Notes under the pieces: model-generated
Seen by the model: the letters and a program-made list of their open reading frames with translations, nothing else
What the model was told of the DNA's origin: nothing
The model's database searches: none
Part shown: piece after piece, positions 29,562 through 47,893 of the stretch
How the letters are laid out: every line of letters begins with the position of its first letter
How positions within the stretch are numbered: the first letter of the stretch is position 1
Program-made: the position numbers and the translations under genes
Assembly: GCF_020736365.1 (NCBI RefSeq)
Contig: NZ_CP085988.1
Span: 1,742,001-1,806,000 of the forward strand
Origin: Clostridium sp. M62/1
Lineage (GTDB): Bacteria; Bacillota; Clostridia; Lachnospirales; Lachnospiraceae
DNA length: 64,000 nt
Direction of reading: 5' to 3'

Positions 29562-29612
29562 AAGGAAGACAGAAAGATAAAAAAAGAATAAAACAAGACA
29601 GAAGGAAGGCAG

Positions 29613-29654
29613 TCAGCCGCTTCGGTTATGGAAAGACCGGGCGGCTGATTTTTT
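29613..29654 (+). terminator. Factor-independent terminator
   Basis: TCAGCCGC (29613-29620) pairs with GCGGCTGA (29641-29648), with an inner CGGT/ACCG, followed by six T (29649-29654). It ends the tatD operon and isolates the recombinase gene. Confidence 0.9.
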
Positions 29655-29784: not shown

Positions 29785-30630
29785 ATGAAAAAAATGAAAA
29801 TGACAGAAGCTAAAATGGAAGCCTACCGCATTTATCTGATGGAATCAGAAAAAAGTCCGTCAACCATTGAAAAATATCTGAGAGATATCCGTAATTTTTA
29901 TCAGTTTTTGCCAGAAGAAAAAATCATTGACCGGGAAGCAGTGCTCCTTTACAAGCGGCAGCTGATTCCAAAGTACCAGATAAGCAGCGCCAATTCCATG
30001 ATTATTGCAGTCAACGGCTTTTTAAGCTTTATGGGGCTGGAAGAGCTGAGAGTAAAGGTATTCAAATTTCAGCGGGCCATGGTCAGTGATCCGGAGAGAG
30101 AGATACAGCGGGAGGAGTATATTCGGCTGGTGGAAGAGGCAGAGCGGATGGGAAAAAGCAGGCTGAGCCTAATCCTCCAGACGCTGGGAGCCACCGGAAT
30201 CCGCATCAGCGAGCTGGTCTGCATTACCAGAGAAGCAGTCAGTTCAGGGCGGGCAGCTGTAAACTTAAAGGGAAAGATGAGAGTAGTTATTCTTCCAAAA
30301 AGGCTGAGGGAGAAAATGGAAATATACTGCAGGGAAAATCAGATTTATTCAGGACCTGTTTTTGTCACAAGAGGAGGAAAGCCTGTTGACAGGAGCAATA
30401 TCTGGTCAGAGATGAAAATCCTCTGCAAAACAGCAGGGATTAACGAAAAGAAAATATTTCCCCACAACCTCCGCCATCTGTTTGCAAGAATTTACTATAA
30501 AAATAATCACGATATTGTCTATCTGGCAGACATTCTGGGACACAGCAGTGTGGAAACCACAAGAATCTATACAAGTATCAGCGGATTTGAACATGAAAAA
30601 GTTCTTGAAGATATGGAGCTGATTATCTAA
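29785..30630 (+). CDS. Tyrosine recombinase, probable DNA invertase of the capsule switch
   Basis: A 281-residue XerC/D-like site-specific recombinase. It has an N-terminal SAM-like DNA-binding part (YLMESEKSPSTIEKYLRDIR), then a catalytic domain with Arg I in GATGIRISELV, the HNLRHLFAR box (His-x-x-Arg), LGHSSVETTRIY and the nucleophilic tyrosine in the last motif. ATG 29785 has GGAG eight bases upstream; ATG 29770 has none. It is small, alone, and placed 46 bp before a pair of perfect inverted repeats that flank a promoter, ahead of the capsule operon. This is the layout of fim/Mpi-type and clostridial phase switches. Inversion activity is inferred from position. Confidence 0.88.
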   Translation: MKKMKMTEAKMEAYRIYLMESEKSPSTIEKYLRDIRNFYQFLPEEKIIDREAVLLYKRQLIPKYQISSANSMIIAVNGFLSFMGLEELRVKVFKFQRAMVSDPEREIQREEYIRLVEEAERMGKSRLSLILQTLGATGIRISELVCITREAVSSGRAAVNLKGKMRVVILPKRLREKMEIYCRENQIYSGPVFVTRGGKPVDRSNIWSEMKILCKTAGINEKKIFPHNLRHLFARIYYKNNHDIVYLADILGHSSVETTRIYTSISGFEHEKVLEDMELII

Positions 30631-30676
30631 AAAATAGTCAGATGAAGAAAAAGTCGAGAAAATACAGCGAAATATG

Positions 30677-30787
30677 ACAAAATAAGAATAATGTAGTAAT
30701 AAAGCAACAAAAATTCCTAAGTTTCTTTTCAATATCTCATTGTATCAAAGGCTATCAGTAAAGTCAACAACGGAATTCTTATTTTGT
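30677..30787. promoter_or_regulatory. Invertible promoter element (capsule phase switch)
   Basis: ACAAAATAAGAAT (30677-30689) and ATTCTTATTTTGT (30775-30787) are perfect 13-bp inverted repeats enclosing 85 bp. The enclosed DNA holds a promoter reading on the minus strand (next entry), toward the recombinase and away from the capsule genes. Inversion would place that promoter 42 bp or more upstream of the first capsule gene in the correct direction. No equally good plus-strand promoter is visible in the current orientation. Confidence 0.75.
30739..30767 (-). promoter_or_regulatory. Sigma-A promoter inside the invertible element, facing away from the capsule genes
   Basis: On the minus strand TTGACT (30762-30767) and TACAAT (30739-30744) are separated by exactly 17 bp; both boxes differ from consensus by one base. 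In this orientation transcription would run antisense into the recombinase gene. Confidence 0.75.
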
Positions 30788-30828: not shown

Positions 30829-31569
30829 ATGCTCAGGAGAAAGGTAAAAGCAGAACTTACTGATGTGCACGCCCATATTCTTCCGGGAGTCGACGATGGA
30901 GCTGAAAGTCTGGAGGAAGCCAGACAAATGCTTCAGATGGCATATGACCAGGGGATCCGACGTATCATCGCAACCCCTCACTACCGGCGGGGACAGGATA
31001 CAGCGCGGCTCAGAGAGCTGGCCCGGGAGCTTAAAAAAGAGGCAGAAAAGATAGACTCCGATTTTAGAATCTATTTAGGGCAGGAGCTTATGGATTCAGA
31101 GGAGCTTCTGGAAGATCTGAAAGAAGGAAGGGCCTTTACCATGGCAGGGAGCAGGTACATACTGATAGAATTTCAGCCTGTGGTTTCCTTCAGCCATATG
31201 TGCCAGCGCCTCAGGCAGCTGCAGATGGCAGGGTATCTGCCTGTCATAGCACATATGGAGCGGTATGAGTGTCTGAAAAGAGGGGAAAGAGTCAGGGATC
31301 TGATTCAGGCAGGGAATTTTACACAGATGAATTTCTCCAGCCTTCAGGGAAATCCCCTTCACAAAAATACCAGGTGGTGCAGGAGACAGGTTTTAGATGG
31401 AAACGTGCATCTGCTGGGAACTGATATGCACCATATCAATCAGAGAACACCGGATATAAAGAAAGCAGTCAGCTGGCTGAGCAGAAACTGCACACGGAGC
31501 AGGCTGTACTGGATGGTCTGGAAAAATCCGGCTTACATCATTAAGAAAAAAGAAGGAATGGGCAGGTAG
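30829..31569 (+). CDS. CpsB-type protein-tyrosine phosphatase
   Basis: About 246 residues, a PHP-fold phosphatase of the CpsB/CapC/YwqE family. The metal motif DVHAHILPGVDDG (residues ~8-20), TPHY (~46-49), HMERY (~142-146) and GTDMHH (~198-203) are present. It dephosphorylates the CpsD-like tyrosine kinase encoded two genes later and tunes capsule export and length. The frame opens at ATG 30796, but that start has no ribosome site. ATG 30829 has AAAGGAAG/GAGAG and is preferred. It is the first gene of the polysaccharide operon, directly after the invertible promoter. Confidence 0.9.
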   Translation: MLRRKVKAELTDVHAHILPGVDDGAESLEEARQMLQMAYDQGIRRIIATPHYRRGQDTARLRELARELKKEAEKIDSDFRIYLGQELMDSEELLEDLKEGRAFTMAGSRYILIEFQPVVSFSHMCQRLRQLQMAGYLPVIAHMERYECLKRGERVRDLIQAGNFTQMNFSSLQGNPLHKNTRWCRRQVLDGNVHLLGTDMHHINQRTPDIKKAVSWLSRNCTRSRLYWMVWKNPAYIIKKKEGMGR

Positions 31570-31575
31570 AGGGAG

Positions 31576-32280
31576 ATGGAAAAAAACAGATATGAGGAAA
31601 ACGACGAGATTGATCTGTTGGAATTATTTTATGAATTAAAGAAAAAGCTGTGGCTGATTATTCTGGCAGCCATAATCGGCGGAGGGGCATTTGGACTGTA
31701 CAGCAAGATGATTCTTGTTCCCAAGTACACATCCACAGCCATGATGTATGTTCTATCAAAAGAAACTACTCTGACATCTCTGGCAGATCTCCAGATAGGC
31801 AGCCAGCTGACTCAGGATTACAAGGTGATGATAACCAGCCGTCCTGTTCTGCAGCAGGTGGTTGATGAGCTGGGGCTTGAATATGGTTATAAAGCACTGA
31901 GAGAAAAACTCACCATCGACAATCCGAAAGATACAAGAATCCTTACCCTGTCGGTAGAGGATCCCGATCCGATCCTGGCGGCAGATATTGTAAACACGGT
32001 TGCAGAATGTTCCTCTGAGTATATCGGGGAGATAATGGAGATGATTCCTCCTAAGATTGTGGAGGAGGGCGAGGCGGCCGTCGCACCGACCAGCCCTAAT
32101 GTTAAGAAAAATGCCGTTATGGGAGCAGCAGGCGGAATCTTTCTGGTCTGTGCTTTCGTTGCAGTCCGCGTGATTGTGAACGACACTGTGAAGACAGAGG
32201 AGGATGTGGAGAAATATCTGAAACTGTCTGTACTGGCGTCTGTTCCGGAAAAGGATAAAGGAAAGAGAGGGCAGCGCTGA
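31576..32280 (+). CDS. Chain-length determinant / CpsC-type kinase adaptor
   Basis: A 234-residue Wzz-domain protein. A first transmembrane helix (LWLIILAAIIGGGAFGLYS, residues ~24-42), an external helical region and a second helix near 176-196 end in a short cytoplasmic tail. In Gram-positive systems this protein activates the separate CpsD kinase and controls polymer length. The ribosome site AGAGGGAG precedes it, and the kinase follows after 2 bp. Confidence 0.92.
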   Translation: MEKNRYEENDEIDLLELFYELKKKLWLIILAAIIGGGAFGLYSKMILVPKYTSTAMMYVLSKETTLTSLADLQIGSQLTQDYKVMITSRPVLQQVVDELGLEYGYKALREKLTIDNPKDTRILTLSVEDPDPILAADIVNTVAECSSEYIGEIMEMIPPKIVEEGEAAVAPTSPNVKKNAVMGAAGGIFLVCAFVAVRVIVNDTVKTEEDVEKYLKLSVLASVPEKDKGKRGQR

Positions 32281-32282: not shown

Positions 32283-32984
32283 ATGGGAAAGATGATGAAG
32301 GTGGTGAATATCCACACAGATGAAAACAGGGATTTCCGCTTTGAGGAAGCGATTAAGACGCTGCGCACCAATATCCAGTTCAGCGGCCCCGACATTAAGA
32401 CGGTTATGTTTACAAGCGCTGTGCCGGGCGAGGGAAAAAGTCAGATTACCATATCAGAGGCCATGTCCCTGGCAGGGCTTGGTAAAAAGGTACTGGTGGT
32501 AGATGCAGACATTAGAAAAAGTGTTCTCCTTACACGATACCAGGTAGAACAGGAGGTACACGGGCTTACGGAGTATCTGAGCGGTCAGAGGCAGATGGAG
32601 GAGGTGATCTGCACCACAGACATCCAGGGGATGGATATTATTTTTGCAGGCCCGTACTCGCCGAACCCGTCAGAGCTTCTGGCGGAGCCTCTGTTTAAAG
32701 AACTGATTCTAAAAAAGAGAGAAGAATATGATTATATTCTGATCGATACGCCTCCTATGGCAGGCATTACGGACGGAGCTATCATCTCCACGGTATGTGA
32801 CGGAGCAGTTCTGGTGATAGCGGCAGGAACGGTCAGCCGCAGGATTGAGAGGAGAATCAAGGAGCAGCTGGAAAAGAGCGGCTGCCGGATTTTAGGAGCA
32901 GTACTTAATAAGGTTACATCAGAGCATGGAGGCTATTACGGGAAGCGATACAGGAAGTACTATGGCTATGGTGCGGAGAAGTAA
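32283..32984 (+). CDS. CpsD-type bacterial tyrosine kinase
   Basis: A 233-residue P-loop kinase. Walker A SAVPGEGKSQ (residues ~45-54), Walker A' VLVVDADIRKS (~70-80) and Walker B ILIDTPP (~152-158) are present. The C-terminus carries a tyrosine cluster (GGYYGKRYRKYYGYG) that is autophosphorylated and acted on by the CpsB phosphatase. Phosphorylation state governs capsule polymerisation and attachment. Several ATG codons lie at the start (32283, 32292, 32295); the first gives the N-terminus listed. Confidence 0.93.
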   Translation: MGKMMKVVNIHTDENRDFRFEEAIKTLRTNIQFSGPDIKTVMFTSAVPGEGKSQITISEAMSLAGLGKKVLVVDADIRKSVLLTRYQVEQEVHGLTEYLSGQRQMEEVICTTDIQGMDIIFAGPYSPNPSELLAEPLFKELILKKREEYDYILIDTPPMAGITDGAIISTVCDGAVLVIAAGTVSRRIERRIKEQLEKSGCRILGAVLNKVTSEHGGYYGKRYRKYYGYGAEK

Positions 32985-33068: not shown

Positions 33069-33311
33069 ATGAAAAAGAACAAACGAAGGAAAAGGCTGAT
33101 AATTTTATTCATGGTGCTGATGATTGGGGCAGCTGCGGCAATGCTGAGCAGCCGTTTGGGTATCAGCGGCAGCGGAGAACAGGGAGGCCCGCGATGGGAT
33201 ATTTTAGCAGCAGAAGGACTGCTGCTGGCGGGGGGCTATGGTCTGGCTCTGGCTGCTGGAGGAGAGGGCAGAAAACGTTTGAGAAAGGACGTGTCTTCTC
33301 ATGTCGGTTAA
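33069..33311 (+). CDS. Small two-helix membrane protein
   Basis: About 80 residues with a strongly basic start (KKNKRRKRL), one hydrophobic segment (IILFMVLMIGAAAAML) and a second (ILAAEGLLLAGGYGLALAAG), then a basic tail. It overlaps the next gene by 11 bp, so it is translated with it. The family is unknown. The initiation codon is taken as ATG 33069; the frame is open from a TTG at 33051. Confidence 0.55.
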   Translation: MKKNKRRKRLIILFMVLMIGAAAAMLSSRLGISGSGEQGGPRWDILAAEGLLLAGGYGLALAAGGEGRKRLRKDVSSHVG

Positions 33312-34716
33312 AAACCGCTCCTTTTATATTTTGATCGATCTGGCAGCGATGGCGGCGGCGTATGTGATGACACAGCTGGCCCTGTACGGCTCCTTGCCGG
33401 CCAGGATGAAATGGTACGGCCTTACAATGGTGCTGGGAGTTTATCTGGTATCGGATCTGTTCTTCGGACATGAGAAGCCGCTGGCGGAGGAAAGCGCTGT
33501 GGAAACTTTTCTGGACGTGGTGAGGCAGACGGTCTATATGGCCTTTCTGTTTGCCCTCCTCTTGTTCTTGCTGGGGCAGAGAGGCGGGGATACAAGACTG
33601 TTTTTCGTCCTCCTGGTGCTGTTTTCCTTTGGATGTCTTTACCTCGGCAGAATTTACTGCAAGGCAGTGATCTTCAATTACTATGGAAATGAAAAAAACA
33701 GAACCCGCCTTTTAATCTTTGCAAATCCGTCGAATGTGCAGAAGGCTATGGGCCGGCTCGCCGCCTCCAACCTGTATATGTATGAGCTGATAGCCCTGGT
33801 GATCATGGACCGTGAGGGAAAGAACCCTGAGCTGTATCTGATCAGGCCAAAAGATACAGGAGGATATGAGAGGAAAAGCACTTCAGACTTTGATCTTACC
33901 GAGTATCTCAAGCGCCAGGCAGTAGATGAAGCCCTGATCAGCCTGCCGGACAGCAGCAGGGAATGCATCAGCAGCCTTTTAGAGAAGCTGCAGTGTATGG
34001 GGATTGTCGTCCATGTGGCGGCCAGCAGCCTGGGACTCTCAGAGGAGGAAAAGCAGATAGGAGAGCTTGGACTCTACCGGGTTCTGACCTACGGCCCCCG
34101 AATTTTCCGTCCCTCTGAACTGATATTAAAGAGGGCCATGGATATTCTGGGAGCAGCTGTGGGGATTTGCCTGACCGTTTTAATCGGACTCTTCGTCGTT
34201 CCGGCCATCAAGCTGGAGTCTCCTGGGCCGGCTGTTTTTAAGCAGACCCGCATTGGGAAAAACGGCCGGAAGTTTTCGATTTATAAGTTTCGTTCCATGT
34301 ACATGGATGCGGAGGAGCGAAAGAAGGAACTTATGAAGCAGAATGAGATGGAAGGGTTCATGTTTAAGATGAAGGACGACCCGAGAATTACGAAGGTAGG
34401 AAAGTTTATCAGGAAAACGAGTATAGACGAGCTTCCGCAGTTTTTTAATGTGCTGCGGGGAGATATGAGCCTTGTGGGAACGAGGCCTCCGACCGTGGAC
34501 GAGTTTGAGCGCTATGAGGAGCATCACAAAAGGCGCCTTTCGCTCCGGCCTGGGATTACAGGCATGTGGCAGGTAAGCGGACGCAGCGACATCCAGAATT
34601 TTGAGGATGTGGTGAGGCTGGATCTGGAGTACATAGACAACTGGTCTGTCTGGCTGGATATTAAGATCCTCTTTCAGACAGTCTTTGTTGTCCTTCTCCA
34701 CAGGGGGGCAGAATGA
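33301..34716 (+). CDS. Undecaprenyl-phosphate sugar-phosphate transferase (initiating enzyme)
   Basis: A 471-residue polyprenyl glycosylphosphotransferase of the WbaP/CpsE type. The N-terminal half has four hydrophobic segments and a flexible soluble part. The C-terminal catalytic half begins KRAMDILGAAVGI (~280) and includes SPGPAVFKQTRIGKNG, KFRSMYMDAEE, KTSIDELPQFFNVLRGDMSLVGTRPP and the closing LRPGITGMWQVSGRS. It transfers the first sugar phosphate to the lipid carrier. The start is ATG 33301, overlapping the preceding small gene; its stop overlaps the LCP gene start. Confidence 0.94.
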   Translation: MSVKNRSFYILIDLAAMAAAYVMTQLALYGSLPARMKWYGLTMVLGVYLVSDLFFGHEKPLAEESAVETFLDVVRQTVYMAFLFALLLFLLGQRGGDTRLFFVLLVLFSFGCLYLGRIYCKAVIFNYYGNEKNRTRLLIFANPSNVQKAMGRLAASNLYMYELIALVIMDREGKNPELYLIRPKDTGGYERKSTSDFDLTEYLKRQAVDEALISLPDSSRECISSLLEKLQCMGIVVHVAASSLGLSEEEKQIGELGLYRVLTYGPRIFRPSELILKRAMDILGAAVGICLTVLIGLFVVPAIKLESPGPAVFKQTRIGKNGRKFSIYKFRSMYMDAEERKKELMKQNEMEGFMFKMKDDPRITKVGKFIRKTSIDELPQFFNVLRGDMSLVGTRPPTVDEFERYEEHHKRRLSLRPGITGMWQVSGRSDIQNFEDVVRLDLEYIDNWSVWLDIKILFQTVFVVLLHRGAE

Positions 34717-35756
34717 CAGAAAATAAAAAAAGGCAGAGATGGTTGGCGGCAATTCTGAGAATTTTCGTGTTTGCCGCGGCGGTAGGGTTTGTCACCTTTT
34801 CAGTCCAGTCTTATCAGAAAAAAAAGGAAGCAGAGATGACGGCTGAAATGCGGAAAAGCGAAAGAGAGAAAAATGGCCTCCAGACAGGAGACAGGGAGGC
34901 TGTCAGAGTTTATAACGGAAAGGAATACAGACAGAATACTCTGAACACTGTGATTCTCTGTGTGGGAGTTGACACAAGCGGGGCTGTAGAGCAGCAGAAG
35001 GTTTCCGGCGCGGGAGGGCAGGCAGATGTGATGGCCCTTCTGATACAGAACCGGGCGACAGACGAGGTAAATATTCTCACCATTCCGAGAGACACCATGA
35101 CAGAGATCAGGCTGTTTGATCTGAATGGAAATTATCTGGGAACGGATGTACAGCACCTGAACCTGGCCTACGGCTACGGAGACGGAGAGCAGGAGAGCTG
35201 TGAGCTTCTCACAGAGGCAGTGGAAAATCTGCTGGGGGGAGTGGAGATAGACGGGTATGTTTCCGTCAATATGAGCGCAATCCCTGTTTTGAACGATCTG
35301 GTGGGAGGAGTTACGGTTACCATTGACGATCCTGGCATGGAGGGAAGAGATCCCAGCCTCCCCTATGGTGAGACCGTTACCCTTCACGGAAAGCAGGCAG
35401 AGACCTATGTGCGCTACAGAGACACCGATGTTTCACAGAGCGCCATTTCAAGAATGGATCGCCACAGGACCTACGCGAAGGGATGGATGGAACAGGCTGA
35501 GAAGGAACAGCAGAAAGACAGCCAGTTTCTTGGAAAAACCTTTGACGCGCTGCAGGAGTATATGGTTACAGATCTGAACAAGGATGCATATCTGGATGCA
35601 GGTCTGGCAGCCATGGGTACAGAAAATCTGTTTGGCGGAGATCACTTCTTCACAGTGCCCGGCGAGGGAACTGAAGGGCTTGTCTATGACGAGTTTTACC
35701 CTGACGGAGAGGCATTTGAGGAAATGATTATAGAGCTGTTCTACAGGGAAACGTAG
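34713..35756 (+). CDS. LytR-CpsA-Psr (LCP) family protein
   Basis: A 347-residue protein with an N-terminal membrane helix (residues ~12-28), an alpha-helical stretch and an extracellular LCP domain. Conserved features are ILCVGVD near 80-86, the arginine in TIPRDTMTEI, HLNLAYGYG and YVRYRDTDVSQSAISRMDRHR. LCP enzymes transfer polysaccharide from its lipid carrier to peptidoglycan, so this one probably attaches the locus product to the wall. ATG 34713 overlaps the previous stop. Confidence 0.92.
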   Translation: MTENKKRQRWLAAILRIFVFAAAVGFVTFSVQSYQKKKEAEMTAEMRKSEREKNGLQTGDREAVRVYNGKEYRQNTLNTVILCVGVDTSGAVEQQKVSGAGGQADVMALLIQNRATDEVNILTIPRDTMTEIRLFDLNGNYLGTDVQHLNLAYGYGDGEQESCELLTEAVENLLGGVEIDGYVSVNMSAIPVLNDLVGGVTVTIDDPGMEGRDPSLPYGETVTLHGKQAETYVRYRDTDVSQSAISRMDRHRTYAKGWMEQAEKEQQKDSQFLGKTFDALQEYMVTDLNKDAYLDAGLAAMGTENLFGGDHFFTVPGEGTEGLVYDEFYPDGEAFEEMIIELFYRET

Positions 35757-35812
35757 GGCAGAAATGCCGGACGCCTGCAGAACAGAAATAAAAAAGAAAG
35801 GAGAGAGCTACG

Positions 35813-36430
35813 ATGAAAATCAGGTATCAGGCCGGAATTCTGGCAGCAGCGCTGTCACTGTCTGTAATGACCATGGCATTTGCGGCCGGAAGTCCCAGCA
35901 CAAATCCCAGGCCGATCGGCGGAGGCGGCTCCAGTTCAAGTTCAGGTCCCAGACCGATTGGCGGCGGAAGCTACAATCCGGGAGGCCCTGGACTCACGAC
36001 CATCGAAGACGGCAGCACGCCTGAGGCTTCCGGAGGAAGCGGGGCGCTGTCTGGCAATACGAATACCGGAGTTAGCGTGACTTTCACGGAAAACTTCGGA
36101 GCTTCGATTTCAGACAACCAGATCGCGCAGGTGAATGCGGGGCTTTCCACTATCCAGTCTCTGCCTTCTGACACAGATCTGACAGGGTACAACCCGTTAG
36201 TCAGAATTCAGAACATGGAGACAACTGCATCCACTGACGGTCAGCCGATCCAGTTCAGCATCTATGTGCCGAACCTGGTAGAGGGACTGAACAATATTCA
36301 GATTCTGATACAGAATCCCAGTACCGGGAAATGGGAGCTGGTAGCGCCTACAGCTGTCAGCACCGGTACAAAGACAGTAACGGTATCTCTTAATTATGCA
36401 GGACCGCTTACAGTCGTATACAAGAACTAA
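35813..36430 (+). CDS. Secreted low-complexity protein with PRPIGGG repeats
   Basis: 205 residues. A clear signal peptide ends at about AFAAG (residues ~20-26). A Gly/Ser/Pro linker follows with PRPIGGG occurring twice, then a soluble beta-rich region (GVSVTFTENFGASISDNQIAQVNAGL ... VVYKN). There are no sortase or membrane anchors. AAAGGAGAGAG precedes the start. It sits inside the capsule operon between LCP and the wall-binding protein, so a surface or matrix role is probable; I know of no named family. Confidence 0.7.
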   Translation: MKIRYQAGILAAALSLSVMTMAFAAGSPSTNPRPIGGGGSSSSSGPRPIGGGSYNPGGPGLTTIEDGSTPEASGGSGALSGNTNTGVSVTFTENFGASISDNQIAQVNAGLSTIQSLPSDTDLTGYNPLVRIQNMETTASTDGQPIQFSIYVPNLVEGLNNIQILIQNPSTGKWELVAPTAVSTGTKTVTVSLNYAGPLTVVYKN

Positions 36431-36446
36431 GAGACAGGAAGGGAAG

Positions 36447-36482
36447 GGCAGCAGTGTTTTGATGAAAGGCAGTGCTGCCTTT
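36447..36482 (+). terminator. Hairpin with short T-run
   Basis: GGCAGCA (36447-36453) pairs with TGCTGCC (36473-36479), followed by TTTC; the inner part can also form AAAGGCAG/CTGCCTTT. It is a weak terminator or attenuator within the operon. Confidence 0.45.
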
Positions 36483-36647
36483 CTGCCTGGCCTGGTTAAA
36501 ATAAAAAAATAAATATAAAAGATGAAAAAATATTGATATATGCATGAATTTTGAAAAGAAGGAGCAGCAGATGTGCAGACTGGGAAAGCTGCTTTTGAGA
36601 TAGAGAAGGCAAAAGGAAAAAATATTCTGAGAAGGAAAAATACGAGT

Positions 36648-38795
36648 ATGAAGAAGCGTTTTTTAAATTTACCGGAGTGTCTGTCCGGACTGGAAGCAAA
36701 AACATGGAAAAGACGACTGGTCTCTCTGGCTGCCGGTATGCTTTTGCTGGCCTCCTTCCCCGCCCTTGCAGCCGGACGGTGGCAGAGTGCAGAAGGAGAA
36801 AAATATTACATAAAGGAAGACGGATCCCGGTATGAAAATACCTGGTTTTCGATAGAAAGCGTACCTGCAAATCCTCTGGCAAAGGTGACGGTGACCTGGT
36901 ACTATGCCGGGCCGGACGGAGCCGTCCTCACCAATGGATGGCATGAAATAGAGGGGAAACATTATTATTTCTACCCAGGAGGAAATTCACCCAGAAATGT
37001 TTTCTTCAATCTGGACGGAAAGCGCTACTACGTGGATGAGACGGGAGCCCGGGCGGAAAAGGGCTGGTTTTCTGTCACGACCGTCAATTCTTCTACCGGC
37101 GTTTCTTCTGTCAGCTGGTATTATGCAAACCCGGACGGAAGCCTGAGGACAGGAGGCTGGCAGGTGATTGACGGTGTGGAGTATTACTTTGACGCCAATG
37201 GAAGATCACCGAGAAATAACTGGGTAAATATTGAGGACGCCCGGTATCATGTGGACGAACGGGGCGGAAAGCAGACGGGCTGGTTCTCTGTCTCCGGCGT
37301 AAACGGAAATGGACAGGCATACGAAAACTGGTACTATGCCGAGCCGGATGGAAAACTGGCGAGAAACGGCTGGAAGGATCTGGAGGGCCATCGGTATTAT
37401 CTGGATGCAAATGGATTGTCCTATCGGAAACGCTGGTATGTGGACGGTGATAAAAACCGATACTATCTGGATGAAGAAGGAATCCTTCAGCAGAATGGCT
37501 GGTTCCGAATCTCAAACACCAACGCTTCCACAGGAGTGACCACGGAAAACTGGTACTGGGCAGATGCGGCTGGTTCCGCAAAAAAAGACGGAGCGTATGA
37601 AATAGACGGAGCCATGTACCGGTTTGATGCCAACGGCACGATGTATAAAAAGAGATGGTACACCGATGAGAAGGGAAAAAAACAGTATTTCGGAGAAAAC
37701 GGAGCCATGTGCCGGAATCAGTGGTTTTCCATCAGCGGAGAGCGGGCGGACGGCAGCGAATATACCAACTGGTATTACGCCGGTGAGAACGGTTATGTTC
37801 TGACCGGCGGCTGGAAGAATATTAATGGAAAAGATTATTACTTTAACACGGGAGGCAATATTTCCACCGGATGGCTGGATGATGATAAATACTACTGCGG
37901 TGACGACGGAGCCAGAAGGCATGGCTGGGATTGGATCCAATTGGACGAGGACTGGATTGACGACAACGATAATGTAAAAAAATATGCAGATCGGAACGGG
38001 GAGTGGGGCTGGTTTTACTTCTCGCCGGAAAACGGCAGGAAGAGGGAAAGCGGCTCCGGCTTCGAGGAAAGCCGGGTAGACGGAACTACTTACTGCTTTG
38101 ACACCTATGGGATTATGCAGATGGGCTGGGTCAAAATGAGGGGAGCTTCCCCGGCTCTGAGCGGGTACCGGTACTATTTTCCATATGCGGGGCTGGAAGG
38201 ATTTATACAGGGACAGAAGGCAGAAGACTGCTGGCTGATGACGGAGCTTCCGGAAGATATTGACGGGGCATCCGGGGAAAAATGGCGGTATTTTCAGGGA
38301 AATGGAGCCCCTGTGTGTGCTCCGGCAGGAAGGTACGTGATTCAGAAAATTGACGGAAAGAAGTATGCCTTCGACGACAGGGGAGCCGCCAGAACCGGTC
38401 TTCTGGAAATTGATGGGGAAGTTTATTACTTTGGAGAGCCGGACGGCGACTATTCCATGGTCACCGGAGCCTGTGAGCTTACTGATGACACTGGAGAAAA
38501 GGCAGATTACTATTTTGAAGCAAGCGGAAAAGGGACGACAGGTATTAAGAACGGACGCTTTTACTATAAGGGAAGACTCCAGACTGCAGACCGGAATGCA
38601 AAGTACGAAGTATTCCGGGTACCGGGAAAAGGGCTGCGGCTGATTGACTCAAACGGCAAGGTGGTAAAGGGCAGAAAAGTGACTGACGGTGACAAGTGCA
38701 GATGGAAGGTAAATTCCAGCGGAACCATCGAGGAATTTGGCTCCGACTATGTGGCAGAGATTACAGAGCCGGAGACAGTACCATACGAAGGCTAG
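36648..38795 (+). CDS. Large secreted protein with cell-wall-binding repeats
   Basis: About 715 residues. A signal peptide with a long basic region (SLAAGMLLLASFPALAAG) is followed by at least ten aromatic repeats of the choline-binding/cell-wall-binding type, in which Gly-Trp, Tyr-Tyr and a final Gly recur (NGWHEIEGKHYYFYPGG, RTGGWQVIDGVEYYFDANG, LTGGWKNINGKDYYF). No catalytic domain is apparent, so it may be a surface scaffold or matrix component. The frame opens upstream at 36573, but the ATG at 36648 begins the signal peptide and follows GAAGGA. It lies within the polysaccharide locus. Confidence 0.85.
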   Translation: MKKRFLNLPECLSGLEAKTWKRRLVSLAAGMLLLASFPALAAGRWQSAEGEKYYIKEDGSRYENTWFSIESVPANPLAKVTVTWYYAGPDGAVLTNGWHEIEGKHYYFYPGGNSPRNVFFNLDGKRYYVDETGARAEKGWFSVTTVNSSTGVSSVSWYYANPDGSLRTGGWQVIDGVEYYFDANGRSPRNNWVNIEDARYHVDERGGKQTGWFSVSGVNGNGQAYENWYYAEPDGKLARNGWKDLEGHRYYLDANGLSYRKRWYVDGDKNRYYLDEEGILQQNGWFRISNTNASTGVTTENWYWADAAGSAKKDGAYEIDGAMYRFDANGTMYKKRWYTDEKGKKQYFGENGAMCRNQWFSISGERADGSEYTNWYYAGENGYVLTGGWKNINGKDYYFNTGGNISTGWLDDDKYYCGDDGARRHGWDWIQLDEDWIDDNDNVKKYADRNGEWGWFYFSPENGRKRESGSGFEESRVDGTTYCFDTYGIMQMGWVKMRGASPALSGYRYYFPYAGLEGFIQGQKAEDCWLMTELPEDIDGASGEKWRYFQGNGAPVCAPAGRYVIQKIDGKKYAFDDRGAARTGLLEIDGEVYYFGEPDGDYSMVTGACELTDDTGEKADYYFEASGKGTTGIKNGRFYYKGRLQTADRNAKYEVFRVPGKGLRLIDSNGKVVKGRKVTDGDKCRWKVNSSGTIEEFGSDYVAEITEPETVPYEG

Positions 38796-38877
38796 CGGAG
38801 GATAACCAAAGATCCGGCAAAAAATCAGAAGCCGTGAGCAGAAGATACATCATCCTTACAAAAGGGAGGAAACAGGA

Positions 38878-39813
38878 ATGAAACCAGCGTTAGTTATTCT
38901 GGCCGCCGGCATGGGGACCAGATTCGGAAAAGGAATCAAACAGCTGGAGCCGGTGGGACCCAAGGGGGAGCTTATCGTGGACTATTCCATCCATGATGCC
39001 CTGGAGGCAGGTTTTGGCAAGGTAGTATTCATAATTCGAAAAAGCATGGAGCAGGATTTCCGGGAGCGAATCGGAAAACGGATTGAGAAGCAGGCAGAGA
39101 CAGTCTATGTTTTTCAGGAGCTGGAGGATCTGCCGGAAGGCTTTTTGCTTCCGAAGGGACGAACGAAGCCCTGGGGAACAGGCCACGCCCTTTTATGCTG
39201 CCGGGAAGTGATTCATGAGCCCTTTGCAGTGATCAATGCAGATGACTATTACGGAAAAGAGGCCTTTCGAAAAATGGCAGCCTTCCTTACTGCAGAAAAG
39301 CTCAGGACCCAGGACGGAGTTCTGCACGGATGTATGGCAGGCTTTGTTCTGAAAAATACTTTAAGTGACAGCGGAACCGTCACAAGGGGAATCTGCCGGG
39401 TGACAGAGGAGGGACTGCTAAGACAGGTCATAGAAACCTATGAGATACGCAAAGAAATGGGGAGCATTGCCCAGGGAGTTCAGAAGGGCGAGCCGGTTAT
39501 CCTGAATCAGCAATCTCTGGTATCTATGAACATGTGGGGATTTTCAGAAGATTTTCTGGGAATTCTGGAAAAGGGATTTTCGGAGTTCCTCTCCTCCGCT
39601 AAGCTGGATCCTTTAAAGAGCGAGTACCTGCTTCCCGATATCGTGGACCGGGAAATTCGGAATGGCCGATGCACAGTCATGGTTTTAAAGACGGAAGACC
39701 GGTGGTTTGGAATGACTTACCAGGAGGATGTACCTGCGGTGAAAGAGGCCATCCGGAGGCTGATTGACGAAGGCCAGTATCCGGAGAAATTGGTACAGGA
39801 AACGGGCAGATAG
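38878..39813 (+). CDS. Sugar nucleotidyltransferase-like protein
   Basis: A 311-residue protein with a Rossmann-like nucleotidyltransferase fold. The N-terminus shows the signature LAAGMGTRFGKGIKQLEPVG (residues ~8-27, with the G-x-G-x-R and Lys) and the metal-binding AVINADDYYGKEAF (~118-131). It probably makes an NDP-sugar or NDP-alcohol for the locus; the substrate is not visible. It is preceded by AAAGGGAGG. Confidence 0.85.
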   Translation: MKPALVILAAGMGTRFGKGIKQLEPVGPKGELIVDYSIHDALEAGFGKVVFIIRKSMEQDFRERIGKRIEKQAETVYVFQELEDLPEGFLLPKGRTKPWGTGHALLCCREVIHEPFAVINADDYYGKEAFRKMAAFLTAEKLRTQDGVLHGCMAGFVLKNTLSDSGTVTRGICRVTEEGLLRQVIETYEIRKEMGSIAQGVQKGEPVILNQQSLVSMNMWGFSEDFLGILEKGFSEFLSSAKLDPLKSEYLLPDIVDREIRNGRCTVMVLKTEDRWFGMTYQEDVPAVKEAIRRLIDEGQYPEKLVQETGR

Positions 39814-39887
39814 CAGAGGCAGGAGAAAAGAACAGAAGAAGGAAAGAGGAACGGAGACAGGTACACTCTGCGGGAGGGAGAGAAGCC

Positions 39888-40397
39888 ATGAACCGACAGG
39901 AATATGACAGGGCAGCCTCATTCTGGACAAGCCGGGAATCGGAACTTAAACGGATGGAGCCGGGACAGCTCCTTTCAAAGATGGAGGAATTCCTAACTTC
40001 CCACAATACCTGCGCCCTGGCAACGGGAAGCGGGAGTTTCGTCCGGTGTACTCCGCTGGAGTACGAATACTTCAGGGGACGGATGTGGATTCTCACAGAG
40101 GGAGGGCTGAAATTTGCAGCACTGAGAGACAACAGCCGGGTCAGTGCGGCAGTCTATGAGCCCTATACAGGATTTGACTCCATGAAAGGCATCCAGATAA
40201 CCGGAACCGCCCAGGTGGCGGAGCCGGGAAGCAGGGAATTTAAAGAGTATCAGATTCACAGGAAGGAAAAAGAAGGGGAGGGAGCAATGATTCCGCAGGG
40301 ACTTTATCTTCTGGTGATTCACCCTGAGAAGATGGAAGGGGTGTTTGGGGAGTTTCTGGAGCTGGGGTATTCGGTCAGGCAGACGGTGGAGATGTAG
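39888..40397 (+). CDS. Pyridoxamine 5'-phosphate oxidase family protein
   Basis: A 169-residue split-barrel flavin protein of the PNPOx-like family. CALATGSGSFVRCTPLEYEYF and MWILTEGGLKFAALRDNSRVSAAVYEPYTGF match the flavin-binding barrel. Many such proteins are general FMN, heme or F420 reductases; this one lacks features that fix the substrate. GGGAGGGAG precedes the start. It looks like an insertion of a general metabolic gene into the locus. Confidence 0.85.
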   Translation: MNRQEYDRAASFWTSRESELKRMEPGQLLSKMEEFLTSHNTCALATGSGSFVRCTPLEYEYFRGRMWILTEGGLKFAALRDNSRVSAAVYEPYTGFDSMKGIQITGTAQVAEPGSREFKEYQIHRKEKEGEGAMIPQGLYLLVIHPEKMEGVFGEFLELGYSVRQTVEM

Positions 40398-40519
40398 AGG
40401 AAGCCGGAGGATCATGCTGGACGCCAAAGAGGGGCATATAGTGGTGCGGGTTTGGTGGTGAACGCTGCAGCCACAAACAACAGCTTTTCAGAAGATACTT
40501 AGGAAGGGATGCGCAGAGA

Positions 40520-40966
40520 ATGAAGGATAAACTAAAAATTGCAATGCTGGGACATAAGCGCATTCCATCAAGGGAAGGCGGTATAGAAATTGTCGTTGAG
40601 GAACTGTCCACGCGGATGGTAAAGATGGGTCACTCTGTGACTTGTTACAACCGGTCAGGCCACCATGTCAGCGGTAAGGAATTTGACAGAGATGTACATA
40701 AAGCATACAAGGGAGTGAAGCTAAAATCAGTCTTAACGGTTAACTGCAAAGGGCTTGCAGCAATGTCGTCCTCATTCTTTGGAGCGATCTGTGCTGCCCT
40801 TGGAAGATACGATGTGGTTCATTTCCATGCAGAGGGTCCCTGCGCCATGATGTGGCTGCCGAAACTGTTTGGTAAACGCTGTATCGCAACGATACACGGA
40901 GCTTGTGAAATAATAGAGACAACCGGAAAAAGCCTGATAAATCAAGGGTTTTGGCGGCTTGACTGA
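40520..40966 (+). pseudogene. Truncated rhamnosyltransferase-type glycosyltransferase (DUF1972)
   Basis: The first ~133 residues are a good N-terminal domain of the DUF1972/Cps2T glycosyltransferase family (LKIAMLGHKRIPSREGGIE, VVEELSTRMVKMGHSVTCYNRSG, VVHFHAEGP, RCIATIHGAC). After IIE the reading runs into the repeat unit at 40918 and stops after about 16 unrelated residues. The donor-binding C-terminal domain is lost. Full-length relatives, such as the gene at 46453, have about 400 residues. Confidence 0.8.
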
Positions 40967-41196
40967 TTGATCTCAATTTCTGTTCGAACGGGTGATCAGC
41001 GGTCAGCCAGACCTTGATAGCGGTTTTACGGTGCTGTTCCATCATCATTTACCCAAAATGTAAGGACAGAAATTGAATAAGAAGGAGGTCAGTCGAGCCT
41101 GCCGAGGGACTCCCAGTAGGGAGTCCCCGACAGGCTATTTGTCGTGTTTTCCTTTAGTGTTAATGGAATCAAAATTGGTTTTATGAGCAGTGAAGG
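40918..41196 (+). repeat. Structured repeat unit, copy A
   Basis: About 279 bp, matching copy B at 42560-42834. Left part: GACAACC.. AAATCAAGG.. CGGCTTGAC. A closing stem pairs 40973-40985 with 41064-41076. A long hairpin follows at 41096-41136 (about 17 pairs, one bulge, AGTA loop), then the conserved TTGTCGTGTTT. A short hairpin pairs ATGGAATC (41163-41170) with GGTTTTAT (41177-41184), and the unit ends ATGAGCAGTGAAGG. No open frame of meaning. The stems differ in sequence from copy B but are still paired, which argues for a functional RNA. Confidence 0.7.
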
Positions 41197-41258
41197 CAAA
41201 GGAAGATATTTGAATAAGGGGAGAAGAAAAAGTAACTTACTGGGGGAGTGAAGTAAGG

Positions 41259-41405
41259 ATGGGCGAGAATACAAAGAAGTTGAGAATTGCAATGTTCGGC
41301 CAGAAAAGGTGAAGCCGAAATAGTGGCTTCGAGGGGGTAGTCGAAGAACTCAGCACTCGGATGGTGAAGTTAGGTTACCTGGTGACCTGCTATATGAAAA
41401 AATGT
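41259..41405 (+). pseudogene. Second broken copy of the DUF1972 glycosyltransferase start
   Basis: ATG 41259 reads KKLRIAMFGQKR and stops at TGA. In another frame the DNA continues with sequence matching VVEELSTRMVKLGYLVTCYM, as in the intact family. It is a frameshifted N-terminal remnant, ending at the acyltransferase gene. Confidence 0.7.
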
Positions 41406-41419
41406 TGAGGTGTGAATCG

Positions 41420-42433
41420 ATGATAAAAAATAAAGAAAGAGAAATATGGGTAGATAATATTAAGGTTATCGCATGTACACTTGTTCTGTTGGGACATTTT
41501 TTTCAGAGTATGGTTTCGGCAAATTTAATGCCTGCCAATGATTTATATCAATGGTTTAATCAAACAATTTACTATTTTCATGTACCCTTGTTCTTTATTT
41601 GTTCTGGTTATTTATATCAGAAATTGAGCAAAGTGAACAATATAACCAGCTGGGCTCATAATATTTTAAAGAAAGCAATAAATTTAGGGGTTCCATACTT
41701 TACATTTTCATTTCTTACTTGGGCAATGAAAACTATTTTTTCGGGTTCTACTAATAGTTCAATAAGTGGATTAGGTGAGACGTTATTTTTTAAACCAACA
41801 GGAGCTTACTGGTATTTGTATGCGCTATTCTTTATCTTTTTGATTACACCAACTTTTAGAAATAGAAGAATGAATTTTGTAGGATTCGTCATAGCATTGA
41901 TTTTAAAATTTGTCTCAATCATCTGTGGCGGATTTGGAGTAAATGCAATATCTTATGTTTTATCAAATGAGATATGGTTTGTAATCGGGATGTGTTTAAA
42001 TGCAGTAAACTTTGAGGTATGGGATGTTGGTAAAATTAAGGTCTCGATTGTTACAGGGATTGTATTTCTCGCTTTGAGCATAGTTGTTTATCTTCTGGAA
42101 ATTGATAACGGACTAATAGGTTTTTTACTAGGCTTATTAGCTTGTGGTTCTATTATTGTAGGAATTTATATCATATATAAAAATAGAAATCAATCCGTAC
42201 TGTTTGCCTTTCTCTCGAAATATACGATGCCAATTTTCGTAATGCATACTCCGTTTGCTGCAATGATGCGAATTGTATTACTTAGATTGGGAATATATAA
42301 TCTTGTGCCGCATTTCATTTTAGGAATAGGTATAAGTTTTGCTGGCCCTATAATAGCAGCGTTTATAATGCATAAATCTAAATGGCTAGAATTCTTTCTT
42401 TACCCAGGGAAATTGATAAAAATGAAATTCTAG
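41420..42433 (+). CDS. Membrane O-acyltransferase (acyltransferase-3 family)
   Basis: A 337-residue protein with about ten hydrophobic segments. The start EREIWVDNIKVIACTLVLLGHFFQS has the conserved D-N-I-K-V and the catalytic histidine in LGHFFQS, as in OafA/ExoZ-type acyltransferases; FHVPLFFICSGYLY is also typical. It probably acetylates a capsule sugar. The base composition is much more AT-rich than the flanking genes, and the gene lies between copies A and B of the structured repeat, so it is likely a cassette acquired by recombination. The start at 41420 follows GAGGTG. Confidence 0.88.
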   Translation: MIKNKEREIWVDNIKVIACTLVLLGHFFQSMVSANLMPANDLYQWFNQTIYYFHVPLFFICSGYLYQKLSKVNNITSWAHNILKKAINLGVPYFTFSFLTWAMKTIFSGSTNSSISGLGETLFFKPTGAYWYLYALFFIFLITPTFRNRRMNFVGFVIALILKFVSIICGGFGVNAISYVLSNEIWFVIGMCLNAVNFEVWDVGKIKVSIVTGIVFLALSIVVYLLEIDNGLIGFLLGLLACGSIIVGIYIIYKNRNQSVLFAFLSKYTMPIFVMHTPFAAMMRIVLLRLGIYNLVPHFILGIGISFAGPIIAAFIMHKSKWLEFFLYPGKLIKMKF

Positions 42434-42502
42434 CATGCAGAATAATTTTGCGTCGATAATAAAGGTGTTTTTATTTTATAAATGTGCGGGAGTGGACTTA
42501 AG

Positions 42503-42604
42503 ATGGGAGAAAGTAAAAAACTGAAAATTGCAATGTTTGGTGATGGAGATATAATAGGGACAACCAAGAAAAACCACGTAAAATCAAGGCTTTTGACGGC
42601 TTGA
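42503..42604 (+). pseudogene. Third broken copy of the DUF1972 glycosyltransferase start
   Basis: ATG 42503 reads GESKKLKIAMFGDGDIIG, matching the first residues of the glycosyltransferase family, then enters repeat copy B and stops at TGA 42602-42604. Confidence 0.7.
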
Positions 42605-42834
42605 CCCGAATCTCAAATCTAAATTTTTATGCAGAGAGGGTTTAGAGACGATAAAAGCTATAACAGTGGATGGCTTCTTGGCTGCTCTATTTGACCCAAC
42701 CATGAGAGCGTAAAAATTTGAATAGGAGGTTTGAGGCAAGCCTATGCCAGGCACGAAAGTGTCTGGTATGGGCTTGTTGTCGTGTTTGTCTTTAGCGTTG
42801 ATGAAATCAGAGCTGGTTTCATGAGCAGTGAAGG
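42560..42834 (+). repeat. Structured repeat unit, copy B
   Basis: About 275 bp, same layout as copy A. The closing stem pairs 42621-42632 with 42708-42719 (12 pairs). The hairpin 42738-42775 has 17 consecutive pairs (three G-U) and a GAAA tetraloop. Conserved TTGTCGTGTTT starts at 42777. The short hairpin ATGAAATC/GGTTTCAT precedes ATGAGCAGTGAAGG. It ends 35 bp before rmlA, so it would lie in the leader of the rhamnose genes. Confidence 0.7.
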
Positions 42835-42869
42835 TAAGCCAGGACAAAAATATGACGAGGAGAAACAAA

Positions 42870-43766
42870 ATGAAAGGGATCATACTCGCCGGAGGCTCCG
42901 GCACAAGATTATATCCATTGACGAAGGTTATTTCCAAACAGCTCTTGCCTGTTTATGACAAACCAATGATCTACTATCCGATGTCCGTTCTGATGAATGC
43001 AGGCATCCGGGAAATTCTGATTATCTCTACTCCACAGGACACGCCCCGTTTCGAGGACTTGTTGGGTGACGGCCATCAGTTTGGCGTCAACCTCACCTAT
43101 GCGGTTCAGCCTTCTCCGGACGGTCTTGCCCAGGCTTTTATTATCGGAGCAGATTTCATTGGGAACGAGCCTGTGGCGATGGTCTTGGGCGATAACGTCT
43201 TTGCCGGACACGGCCTGAAGAAAAGATTGAGAGCGGCTGTTGCCAATGCAGAATCCGGTAAGGGTGCAACGGTGTTTGGGTACTATGTGGACGATCCCGA
43301 ACGATTCGGCATCGTAGAGTTTGATAAGAACGGCAAGGCCGTCAGTATCGAGGAAAAGCCGGAACATCCAAAGAGCAATTACTGCGTGATTGGCCTTTAC
43401 TTCTATGACAATCAGGTCGTGGACTATGCCAAGAGCCTGAAACCTTCCGCACGCGGTGAACTGGAAATTACCGACCTCAACTGGATATACCTAGAAGCTG
43501 GAAAACTGAATGTAGAACTGTTGGGCCAGGGCTTTACTTGGCTGGATACCGGCACCCATGAGAGCCTGGTAGACGCAACCAATTTTGTCAAGACGATGGA
43601 GCAGCACCAGCATCGTAAGATCGCCTGCCTGGAAGAAATTGCGTATCTGAACGGCTGGATTACCAAAGAGGAGGTTCTGGCCGTCTATGAGGTATTGAAG
43701 AAAAATCAGTATGGCCAGTATTTGAAAGATGTCTTGGACGGCAAATACCTGGATGTGCTGCACTGA
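42870..43766 (+). CDS. rmlA: Glucose-1-phosphate thymidylyltransferase
   Basis: A 298-residue protein with [35 protein letters not shown], the RmlA signature (nucleotide loop, catalytic Lys and sugar site), and GDNVFAGHG and [11 protein letters not shown] further on. It makes dTDP-glucose, the first step to dTDP-L-rhamnose. The frame opens upstream at 42828, but the ATG at 42870 gives the family N-terminus and follows GAGGAG. It is followed by rmlB, rmlD and rmlC in that order. GC content is higher than in the later glycosyltransferase genes. Confidence 0.97.
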
Positions 43767-43790
43767 AATAGATAGAGGAGAAAAGAGAGT

Positions 43791-44864
43791 ATGAAGAAGT
43801 ATTTGATCACTGGCTGTGCCGGTTTTATTGGTTCCAACTTTGTTTATTATATGCTGAAAAAATATCAGGACATTCTGCTGGTCAATCTGGACAAGCTGAC
43901 CTATGCCGGAAGCCTTGAAAATCTGAAAGGCGTTGAGGGAGACCCACGCCATGTCTTTGTGCAGGGCGATATTTGCGATAAAGACCTGGTCGCCAGTCTG
44001 TTTGAAAAATATGACTTTGATTATGTAATCAACTTTGCTGCGGAGAGCCATGTAGATCGCAGCATTGCCAACCCGGAAATCTTTGTCCAGACCAATGTGA
44101 TGGGGACGATCAATCTTCTTCAGCGGGCGAAGGAAGCCTGGTATAACCCGGAGACAAAAGCCTGGAAAGAAGGCAAGAAGTACCTTCAGGTTTCTACCGA
44201 TGAGGTTTACGGCGCGCTGGGTACAGAAGGCTATTTTACTGAGACCACTCCGCTGTCTCCCCACAGCCCCTATTCTTCCTCCAAAGCCAGCGCGGACCAC
44301 TTTGTGCAGGCGTTCCATGACACCTATGGTATGCCGGTGAATATCACCCGTTGCTCCAACAACTACGGTCCTTACCAGTTCCCGGAGAAGCTGATTCCCC
44401 TGATGATTAACAATGTCAAGCATCACAAGCAGCTCTCTGTGTACGGTGACGGTATGCAGATCCGTGACTGGCTGTATGTGGAGGATCACTGCAAGGCCAT
44501 CGACATGGTGGCAAACGATGGCAAGATCGGCGAGGTCTATAACGTGGGCGGACACAACGAACGCCCCAACATCTTCATCGTTAAGACCATTATCCAGCAG
44601 CTTCATGACCGCCTGAAGGATGAGGGCATCTCTGAAGACCTGATTAAGCATGTGGAGGATCGTCTGGGTCATGACCGCCGTTATGGCATCGACCCTACTA
44701 AGATTAAGAATGACCTTGGGTGGTATCCAGAGACTCCATTTGAGAAGGGCATTGTCCTGACCATCGACTGGTATCTGGAGCATGAGGACTGGATGAACAA
44801 TGTGACCAGCGGCAATTACCAGAAATACTACGAGGCAATGTATAAAGCAAAAGTGGAAATCTAA
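43791..44864 (+). CDS. rmlB: dTDP-glucose 4,6-dehydratase
   Basis: A 357-residue short-chain-type dehydratase. GCAGFIGSNFVYYML binds NAD; the catalytic Ser/Thr, Asp-Glu and Y-x3-K are in VSTDEVYGALG and HSPYSSSKASADHF (the YSSSK motif). It converts dTDP-glucose to dTDP-4-keto-6-deoxyglucose. It is the second gene of the rhamnose set, preceded by AGAGGAG. Confidence 0.97.
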   Translation: MKKYLITGCAGFIGSNFVYYMLKKYQDILLVNLDKLTYAGSLENLKGVEGDPRHVFVQGDICDKDLVASLFEKYDFDYVINFAAESHVDRSIANPEIFVQTNVMGTINLLQRAKEAWYNPETKAWKEGKKYLQVSTDEVYGALGTEGYFTETTPLSPHSPYSSSKASADHFVQAFHDTYGMPVNITRCSNNYGPYQFPEKLIPLMINNVKHHKQLSVYGDGMQIRDWLYVEDHCKAIDMVANDGKIGEVYNVGGHNERPNIFIVKTIIQQLHDRLKDEGISEDLIKHVEDRLGHDRRYGIDPTKIKNDLGWYPETPFEKGIVLTIDWYLEHEDWMNNVTSGNYQKYYEAMYKAKVEI

Positions 44865-44885
44865 AGGGTTGAGGTTGTGGGAAGG

Positions 44886-45800
44886 ATGAAGTTTTTTGTA
44901 ACTGGCGTCAATGGTCAACTTGGCCATGACGTGATGAATGAATTGAATAAAAGAGGTCATGAAGGTGTTGGTTCCGACATTGCAGGGTCTTATGCCGGTA
45001 TTGCTGACGGATCGGCTGTAACCAGCATGCCCTATGTCGGCCTCGACATTACTGACAAAGAAGCCGTGCTGAAGGTTATTTCTGAGATTAAGCCGGACGC
45101 CGTCATCCACTGCGCAGCGTGGACAGCAGTGGACATGGCAGAAGACGACGACAAGGTGGAGAAGGTTCGTGCCGTCAATGCAGGTGGAACTCAGAATATT
45201 GCAGAGGCCTGTAAAGCCATCGACTGCAAAATGCTCTATTTGTCCACAGATTATGTGTTTGATGTGCAGGGAACGGAGCCTTGGCAGCCGGACTGTAAGG
45301 ACTATAAGCCGTTGAACGTCTACGGTCAGACCAAGCTGGAAGGCGAGCTGGCGGTGGCGAACACACTGGAGAAGTACTTCATCGTTCGTATTGCATGGGT
45401 GTTCGGTCTGAATGGCAAGAACTTCATCAAGACGATGATCAATGTGGGTAAGACCCATGATGAGGTCCGGGTGGTTAACGACCAGATTGGCACGCCGACC
45501 TATTGCTTTGATCTGGCGCGGCTTCTGGTGGATATGTGCGAGACAGAGAAGTACGGCTACTATCACGCTACGAATGAGGGCGGTTATATTAGCTGGTATG
45601 ACTTCTGCTGTGAGTTTTACAAGCAGTATGGCTTGAAAACGAAGGTAACACCTGTGACTACTGCGGAGTATGGCCTGAGCAAAGCCGCCCGGCCATTCAA
45701 CAGCCGACTGGACAAGAGCAAACTGGTGGAGAATGGCTTCCAACCGCTGCCCACATGGCAGGATTCAGTAAGCCGTTACCTGAAGGAAGCACAGCTGTAA
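44886..45800 (+). CDS. rmlD: dTDP-4-dehydrorhamnose reductase
   Basis: A 304-residue reductase with GVNGQLGHDVMNEL (NADPH loop, residues ~8-21), the STDYVFDVQG segment and the catalytic YGQTKLEGE motif. It makes dTDP-L-rhamnose in the last step. ATG 44886 is preferred to the GTG at 44877. A decayed copy of its 3' end lies at 47668, so the rhamnose genes were once arranged differently. Confidence 0.96.
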   Translation: MKFFVTGVNGQLGHDVMNELNKRGHEGVGSDIAGSYAGIADGSAVTSMPYVGLDITDKEAVLKVISEIKPDAVIHCAAWTAVDMAEDDDKVEKVRAVNAGGTQNIAEACKAIDCKMLYLSTDYVFDVQGTEPWQPDCKDYKPLNVYGQTKLEGELAVANTLEKYFIVRIAWVFGLNGKNFIKTMINVGKTHDEVRVVNDQIGTPTYCFDLARLLVDMCETEKYGYYHATNEGGYISWYDFCCEFYKQYGLKTKVTPVTTAEYGLSKAARPFNSRLDKSKLVENGFQPLPTWQDSVSRYLKEAQL

Positions 45801-45828
45801 ACGATAGAAAGATTTGGAGATAAAGACA

Positions 45829-46434: not shown

Positions 46435-46452
46435 GAACATAGGGGTAGAAAA

Positions 46453-47661: not shown

Positions 47662-47667
47662 GTGGAT

Positions 47668-47843
47668 GGTTTTGAGCCGAAGGTAACAACTGTACATACA
47701 GAAGAGTATGGAATAAGCAAAGCCAAAAGAACTGTGAACAGTAGACTGGATAGAAGCAAGTTGGTTGAAATGGGATTTTGGTCGCTTCCTTCTTAGCAGG
47801 ATGTAGTATTACGAAAAACAGATATAGCGAAACTGTAGATTTA
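47668..47843 (+). pseudogene. Decayed 3' end of a second rmlD
   Basis: Translating from 47668 gives KVTTVHTEEYGISKAKRTVNS and RLDRSKLVEMGFWSLPS, which aligns with the C-terminus of the intact rmlD, then TAG at 47794-47796 where rmlD has a Trp codon. Matching continues weakly to about 47843. The rest of that gene is absent. Confidence 0.8.
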
Positions 47844-47893
47844 GGTGCTGACTTAAAATATTCTTTTTACCAGATTTGAAGGAGGATTTTTAT

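Follow-up and report, generated by a model that had tools for sequence, protein, structure and literature searches.

The window analysed here, a 64,000-nucleotide stretch of DNA from Clostridium sp. M62/1, contains a tyrosine recombinase gene, followed on the same strand by a short segment between inverted repeats and then by genes for polysaccharide synthesis. The features, in positions of the window, are:

29611..29654, plus strand: terminator-like hairpin before the recombinase gene (-24.7 kcal/mol, z -4.6), then a T run
29785..30630, plus strand: tyrosine recombinase, proposed flipper of the switch (PF00589, PF02899), with R, K, H, R, H and Y invariant in 16 family members
30677-30689: left 13-bp repeat arm, ACAAAATAAGAAT
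30677..30694, plus strand: left 18-bp site, ACAAAAT-AAGA-ATAATGT, 2 mismatches to ACATAAT-N4-ATTATGT
30686..30778, strand not applicable: segment of 93 bp predicted to invert, spacer centre to spacer centre, from the AAGA spacers that the sites share
30739..30767, minus strand: promoter TTGACT-17-TACAAT with extended -10, directed towards the recombinase (OFF), geometry as in the family
30770..30787, minus strand: right 18-bp site, ACAAAAT-AAGA-ATTCCGT in the minus-strand reading, 3 mismatches to the consensus
30775-30787: right 13-bp repeat arm, ATTCTTATTTTGT
30829..31569, plus strand: cpsB/capC-like gene, first after the switch (PF19567, 1e-67)
31576..32280, plus strand: Wzz-type chain length determinant (PF02706)
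32283..32984, plus strand: CpsD/Wze-like tyrosine autokinase (TIGR01007, above cut-off)
33301..59122, plus strand: remaining polysaccharide locus (sugar transferase, LCP, Rml genes, LicD, Caps_synth, glycosyltransferase, weak Wzy, partial Wzx, others)

The genes after the switch look, from their domain matches, like a Wzx/Wzy-type polysaccharide locus, which presumably forms one unit making a capsule. A choline-binding protein and a pyruvyl transferase are also encoded, and no promoter-like site was found in the scan of positions 32900-33400, which span the 317-bp gap before 33301. The most likely start of cpsB is at 30829, preceded by AAAGGAAG, in an ORF open from 30796. This places the first gene of the locus about 41-42 bp past the right repeat, as given in the first-pass annotation of this DNA, and an interval of ~41 bp would leave no room for a whole promoter. 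The choline-binding repeat protein (36573-38795) and the LicD family gene (47876-48730) may be a hint of phosphocholine on the polymer. In the region 58379-61915, the Wzx-like ORF covers only positions 2-205 of 274 of the Pfam model and abuts a minus-strand serine recombinase and a Mob_Pre gene, as though a mobile element had inserted.

The recombinase, described in the first-pass annotation as standing alone ahead of inverted repeats, is indeed an intact ORF with both domains of a tyrosine recombinase and with the repeats 3' of the gene. The ORF is open from an ATG at 29770, but the ATG at 29785 is the likelier start, since the resulting length of 281 aa is found in 7 of the 10 related proteins compared. 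Residues R145, K169, H232, R235, H258 and Y267 (numbered from 29770), presumably the catalytic positions, are those invariant across the 16 family members, and the protein is 44-53% identical over its length to the other 15. In NCBIfam it comes closest to Xer models but stays under the cut-off of each, scoring well short of the curated level for XerD (125.3 versus 329.6 required) and XerC (108.2 versus 335.15). Matches to the tyrosine-type DNA invertase models are weak (9.5e-05 and 2.8e-04) and also under cut-off. The strong hairpin and T run ahead of the gene suggest that it is probably its own transcription unit.

The two 13-bp repeats are perfect, their arms being 100% complementary and bracketing 85 bp as had been claimed. 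Between them, as also reported, is a near-consensus promoter facing away from the capsule locus, with TTGACT running from 30767, a 17-bp spacer and TACAAT ending at 30739 (10/12 matches, and a TG preceding the -10). If the segment were inverted, this promoter would by computation occupy plus-strand positions 30697-30725, with the cpsB start codon 103 bp further on. When the 198-bp gap was simulated 20,000 times with a first-order Markov model, 0.02% of the copies held a repeat of at least 13 bp. Whole-window Markov copies held a mean of 0.45 repeats of this length 30-400 bp apart, and 0.017 with an equally good promoter; the real window has three such repeats, and only the one at the capsule switch has an equally good promoter. 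The scan, which detects loops of 3-8 nt only, found no plus-strand terminator between the recombinase and cpsB, so that some read-through might reach the capsule genes even in the OFF orientation.

On sequence grounds, the switch module belongs to a very large family of clostridial switches, in which the site consensus ACATAAT-N4-ATTATGT lies directly 3' of the recombinase. At least 7998 relatives of the recombinase were recognized among 8000 protein candidates scored, and the genome_contigs scan gave at least 80 loci, with titles almost all from Clostridia or other Bacillota. Many relatives, at 42-53% identity, are present in 61 related genomes. Six of the eight genomes of the genus have matches at 1e-40 or better, with eight each in genomes G004 and G007 and a single one in the genome of the window. 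Near-identical relatives of the window recombinase and relatives at 64-78% identity are known as full-length proteins, the latter having surfaced only as proteins, in the protein search. Among 397 genomes of the bacterial family there is one other match beyond 1e-88, at 52% identity; the best match in the genome_contigs scan, from which records very near to the window may have been left out, is likewise at 52%, and no close orthologs were found in viral_contigs. An inverted repeat of at least 15 bp is present 3' of the recombinase in 60 of the 68 loci that have at least 500 bp of downstream sequence among those listed, compared with 4 of 78 listed loci for the 5' side.

An exact scan of the eight genus genomes, with half-sites fixed and the spacer free, found 58 sites, and none with the reversed control pattern. 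By hand count these include 24 neighbouring pairs no more than 500 bp apart, and the spacers are reverse-complementary in 24/24. The other 10 are five third sites near a same-spacer pair and five singles, four of these within ~420 bp of a contig end. Across 95 called elements (of 96, L109 being dropped for mis-called sites) the spacers never differ from arm to arm, outer half-sites differ in 21 and inner half-sites in 6; the rule for calling these sites favours alike arms, so the exact half-site scan is the cleaner test of the spacer. Strand exchange by tyrosine recombinases requires a matching spacer. That spacers differ among the switches of one genome was considered as evidence of insulation and rejected, as this is expected by chance too.

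Some arrangements of sites are more elaborate. Four CpsB switches, L149-L152 (G004:C215, G007:C10), carry the right site twice, the copies lying 31 or 43 bp from each other and agreeing in spacer, which would offer alternative inversion end points. At L188 (G004:C229:1-8500), sites at 1, 283 and 6453 have one common spacer, and the ~6-kb unit might also invert. In G002:C18:27693-28686 there are two successive same-spacer site pairs and a 215-bp inverted repeat, either a duplicated switch or an assembly artefact.

The window switch is a diverged member of this family. Its sites begin 46 bp past the recombinase stop codon and share the spacer AAGA, with 2 and 3 mismatches to the 14 consensus positions, and the window's genome has no exact consensus sites, its own having diverged. 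The 13-bp repeats noted at first, exact as they are, are therefore part of true sites of 18 bp, the inner halves of which differ. The 75 bp between the 18-bp sites is the shortest called, against a typical segment length near 244 bp, and the spacing of 93 bp from centre to centre is the closest among the 95 elements (next 142, median 262). The two sites mismatch each other at three inner positions, which ties two other elements for the most arm mismatches; no other element has three in the inner half. The inner half-site ATTCCGT is present in both arms of L102 and L124. Close site spacing can hinder synapsis, and with sites unusually close and partly mismatched the switch may be slow or locked. 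It had also been stated that the recombinase and site pair are specific to this locus. This holds within the genome, where the scan saw no second spacer-matched pair and the next-best recombinase is 31% identical, but not outside it, given the size of the clostridial family.

A promoter scoring at least 11 by the script is present in 33 of 98 segments, compared with 13 in five mononucleotide shuffles of every segment. The great majority of the strong promoters face OFF (26, with 6 facing ON and 1 tie; binomial p 0.0005, relatedness ignored), which would make OFF the usual assembled state. The distance from the -10 to the faced repeat has a median of 44 bp in the 33 strong cases and is 49 bp in the window, measured from the 13-bp repeat. 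The promoter stands out less clearly in the six segments of G004 and G007 that are linked to CpsB: L149 and L154 have one of at least 11 facing OFF, L146 is a tie and the three others score 10.5 facing OFF.

Among sister switches, both orientations are found, from one genome to another. Relative to the homologous L158, L159, L161, L165 and L166 (G002, G003), L162 of G004 has its segment inverted, with both flanks aligning, the right flank of L161 weakly. The segment of L164 (G002) is opposite in G003, where it comes from two contigs ending inside the segment. Other inverted pairs, such as L100/L122, have only the recombinase-side flank in common, and the orthologous pairs L146/L154, L149/L150, L151/L152 and L158/L159 have the same orientation. 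The contig breaks at sites in G003 were considered as a sign of mixed orientation and rejected, since both broken ends show one orientation.

Each of the eight CpsB genes detected in the genus, which come from four of its eight genomes, has a spacer-matched site pair no more than 1.5 kb upstream, compared with none of 29 examined in other genera. The latter are 29 loci from 68 non-own matches listed, one with 15 bp upstream and six with 691-1401 bp. The order recombinase, sites, cpsB recurs in six further CpsB genes of two congeneric genomes (G004, G007). In G005, the CpsB gene has a spacer-matched pair (L187 2774-3001; G005:C1:922773-923000) and no family recombinase alongside, the only one in that genome being ~49 kb from the CpsB switch, an arrangement suggestive of either a relic or a recombinase acting in trans. 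Among the first genes downstream of the family's sites, CpsB/CapC accounts for 6 of 66, with 4 NusG matches, 5 SLH and the rest varied or unmatched (the Pfam scan took 66 of 83, the 17 omitted being mostly very long or very short ORFs), and capsule is thus a minority target. NusG-domain genes lie behind the same-family switches L158, L162 and L166 of the genus, and are reminiscent of the UpxY-led capsule operons of Bacteroides.

Capsule control by the family is not confined to the genus, a proposal that was rejected on finding in Hungatella hathewayi DSM 13479 (G077) a recombinase, three sites and three ORFs with CpsB ~2.9 kb past the last site. In the tree, the window recombinase clusters with metagenomic proteins, apart from the CpsB-linked recombinases of its congeners, and holding these together was rejected by the AU test (p 0.0035, for a group chosen after the first tree). 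CpsB loci have thus taken up recombinases of this family repeatedly, or the recombinases were exchanged.

The arrangement is likely to be a self-contained phase-variation cassette, an invertible-promoter switch for the capsule locus, caught OFF. The tyrosine recombinase would bind the two 18-bp sites just 3' of its own gene and exchange strands within the shared AAGA spacer, inverting the 93 bp. In the assembled orientation, the sole good promoter between the recombinase and the capsule genes aims back at the recombinase, which would leave the capsule locus OFF barring read-through; flipped, the same promoter would face cpsB from 103 bp and turn the locus ON. Action of the recombinase on these two sites, flipping of this particular switch and activity of its promoter are presumed. 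The points in favour are the combination of repeat, promoter and spacing, its low chance, the pairing and matched spacers in the family, the promoter geometry, the sister orientations and the CpsB order; those against are the closest sites, the inner mismatches, possible read-through, capsule as a minority target and the G005 pair without a recombinase. The comparison with the family adds to the case for an invertible promoter, assembled OFF, which is the best reading of the locus, as first proposed.

A relic, in which a former working switch is now locked or nearly locked OFF, its segment shrunk and one inner half-site drifted, is unlikely. It would fit the shortest spacing among the 95 elements and the three inner-half mismatches, but the recombinase is intact with invariant key residues, its near-identical and 64-78% relatives are full-length, the ATTCCGT half-site is found in both arms of two other elements and the window's two sites still agree in their spacer. 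Inversion might instead act after initiation, by moving a terminator or leader structure rather than a promoter, as it does at cwpV of C. difficile. Terminator-like hairpins are present on the plus strand in 13/74 family segments set to the OFF orientation and on the minus strand in 9/74, against 0.8 and 0.6 in shuffles; yet none was called in the window segment, which has a strong promoter inside it, and this explanation is very improbable here. That the repeats arose by chance beside an unrelated recombinase, such as the remnant of a mobile element, is scarcely credible, with a repeat probability in the gap of ~0.0002, recombinase-site pairing in 60/68 loci of the family and matched spacers in 24/24, even though the sub-threshold Xer matches mean that no curated name backs an invertase.

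Beyond the phase-variation cassette itself, it is conceivable, though doubtful, that Clostridia have built multi-locus capsule phase variation like that of Bacteroides, in which every locus is served by a recombinase of its own and cross-recombination is blocked by a locus-specific 4-bp spacer, and in which the OFF promoter, convergent into the recombinase 3' end, damps the recombinase and makes OFF stable. Such damping would explain the 26 OFF, 6 ON and 1 tie.

In Bacteroides, invertible promoters before several polysaccharide loci per genome are driven by Mpi, a single master enzyme of the serine type. The likeness lies in having such promoters at more than one polysaccharide locus within a genome, while the window enzyme is of the tyrosine type (PF00589) and not a serine invertase, and the clostridial family has a tyrosine recombinase beside nearly every switch instead of one master enzyme. 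The fim switch of E. coli, a short invertible promoter with tyrosine recombinases, is alike in both respects and differs in its target. Both the Bacteroides capsule promoters with Mpi and the size of the fim switch are mentioned in passages of Sekulovic et al. 2018 (PMC5903667), which place clostridial invertible sites mostly near signalling and chemotaxis genes and give capsule for Bacteroidetes. The RecV switches of C. difficile described there share with the window a tyrosine recombinase, short inverted segments and a host in the Clostridia, with surface and signalling targets; the likeness is one of description, and RecV serves several distant switches, unlike the adjoining recombinase here.

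Closest is inverton group 139 of Jin et al. 2025 (PMC11892184), of which 32/33 are clostridial and which is linked with invertase group 35, a tyrosine recombinase gene being near nearly all. In the two examples named there, repeats of 26 and 14 bp enclose 205 and 227 bp, lengths and spacings as in the window's family, and orientation shifts are reported at read level. The group is probably the window's switch family, set alongside it by description, as the main text of that paper does not give the motif; its passages on the group name no capsule target, in contrast to the switch before the capsule locus here. Elsewhere, a 2025 review of surface polysaccharides in the gut (PMC12413058) takes B. 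thetaiotaomicron as its phase-variable example, and two further titles concern a phase-variable capsule of Akkermansia (PMC13343947) and, for Eggerthella lenta, megabase inversions of capsule clusters (PMC13174815). In literature searches with slight coverage of subscription journals, no title concerned invertible capsule promoters in Lachnospiraceae, and no report was found of clostridial capsule loci each with its own switch recombinase.

Capsules shape the encounters of gut bacteria with phages and with the immune system; the best-known flip-switched examples come from Bacteroides. Since the site motif and matched spacer can be found by a simple pattern, switch states could be scored in existing reads. 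The findings point to a separate clostridial version of flip-switched capsules, in which most switches adjoin a recombinase gene. They also indicate that, within a single genus, CpsB loci acquired recombinases of this family on more than one occasion.
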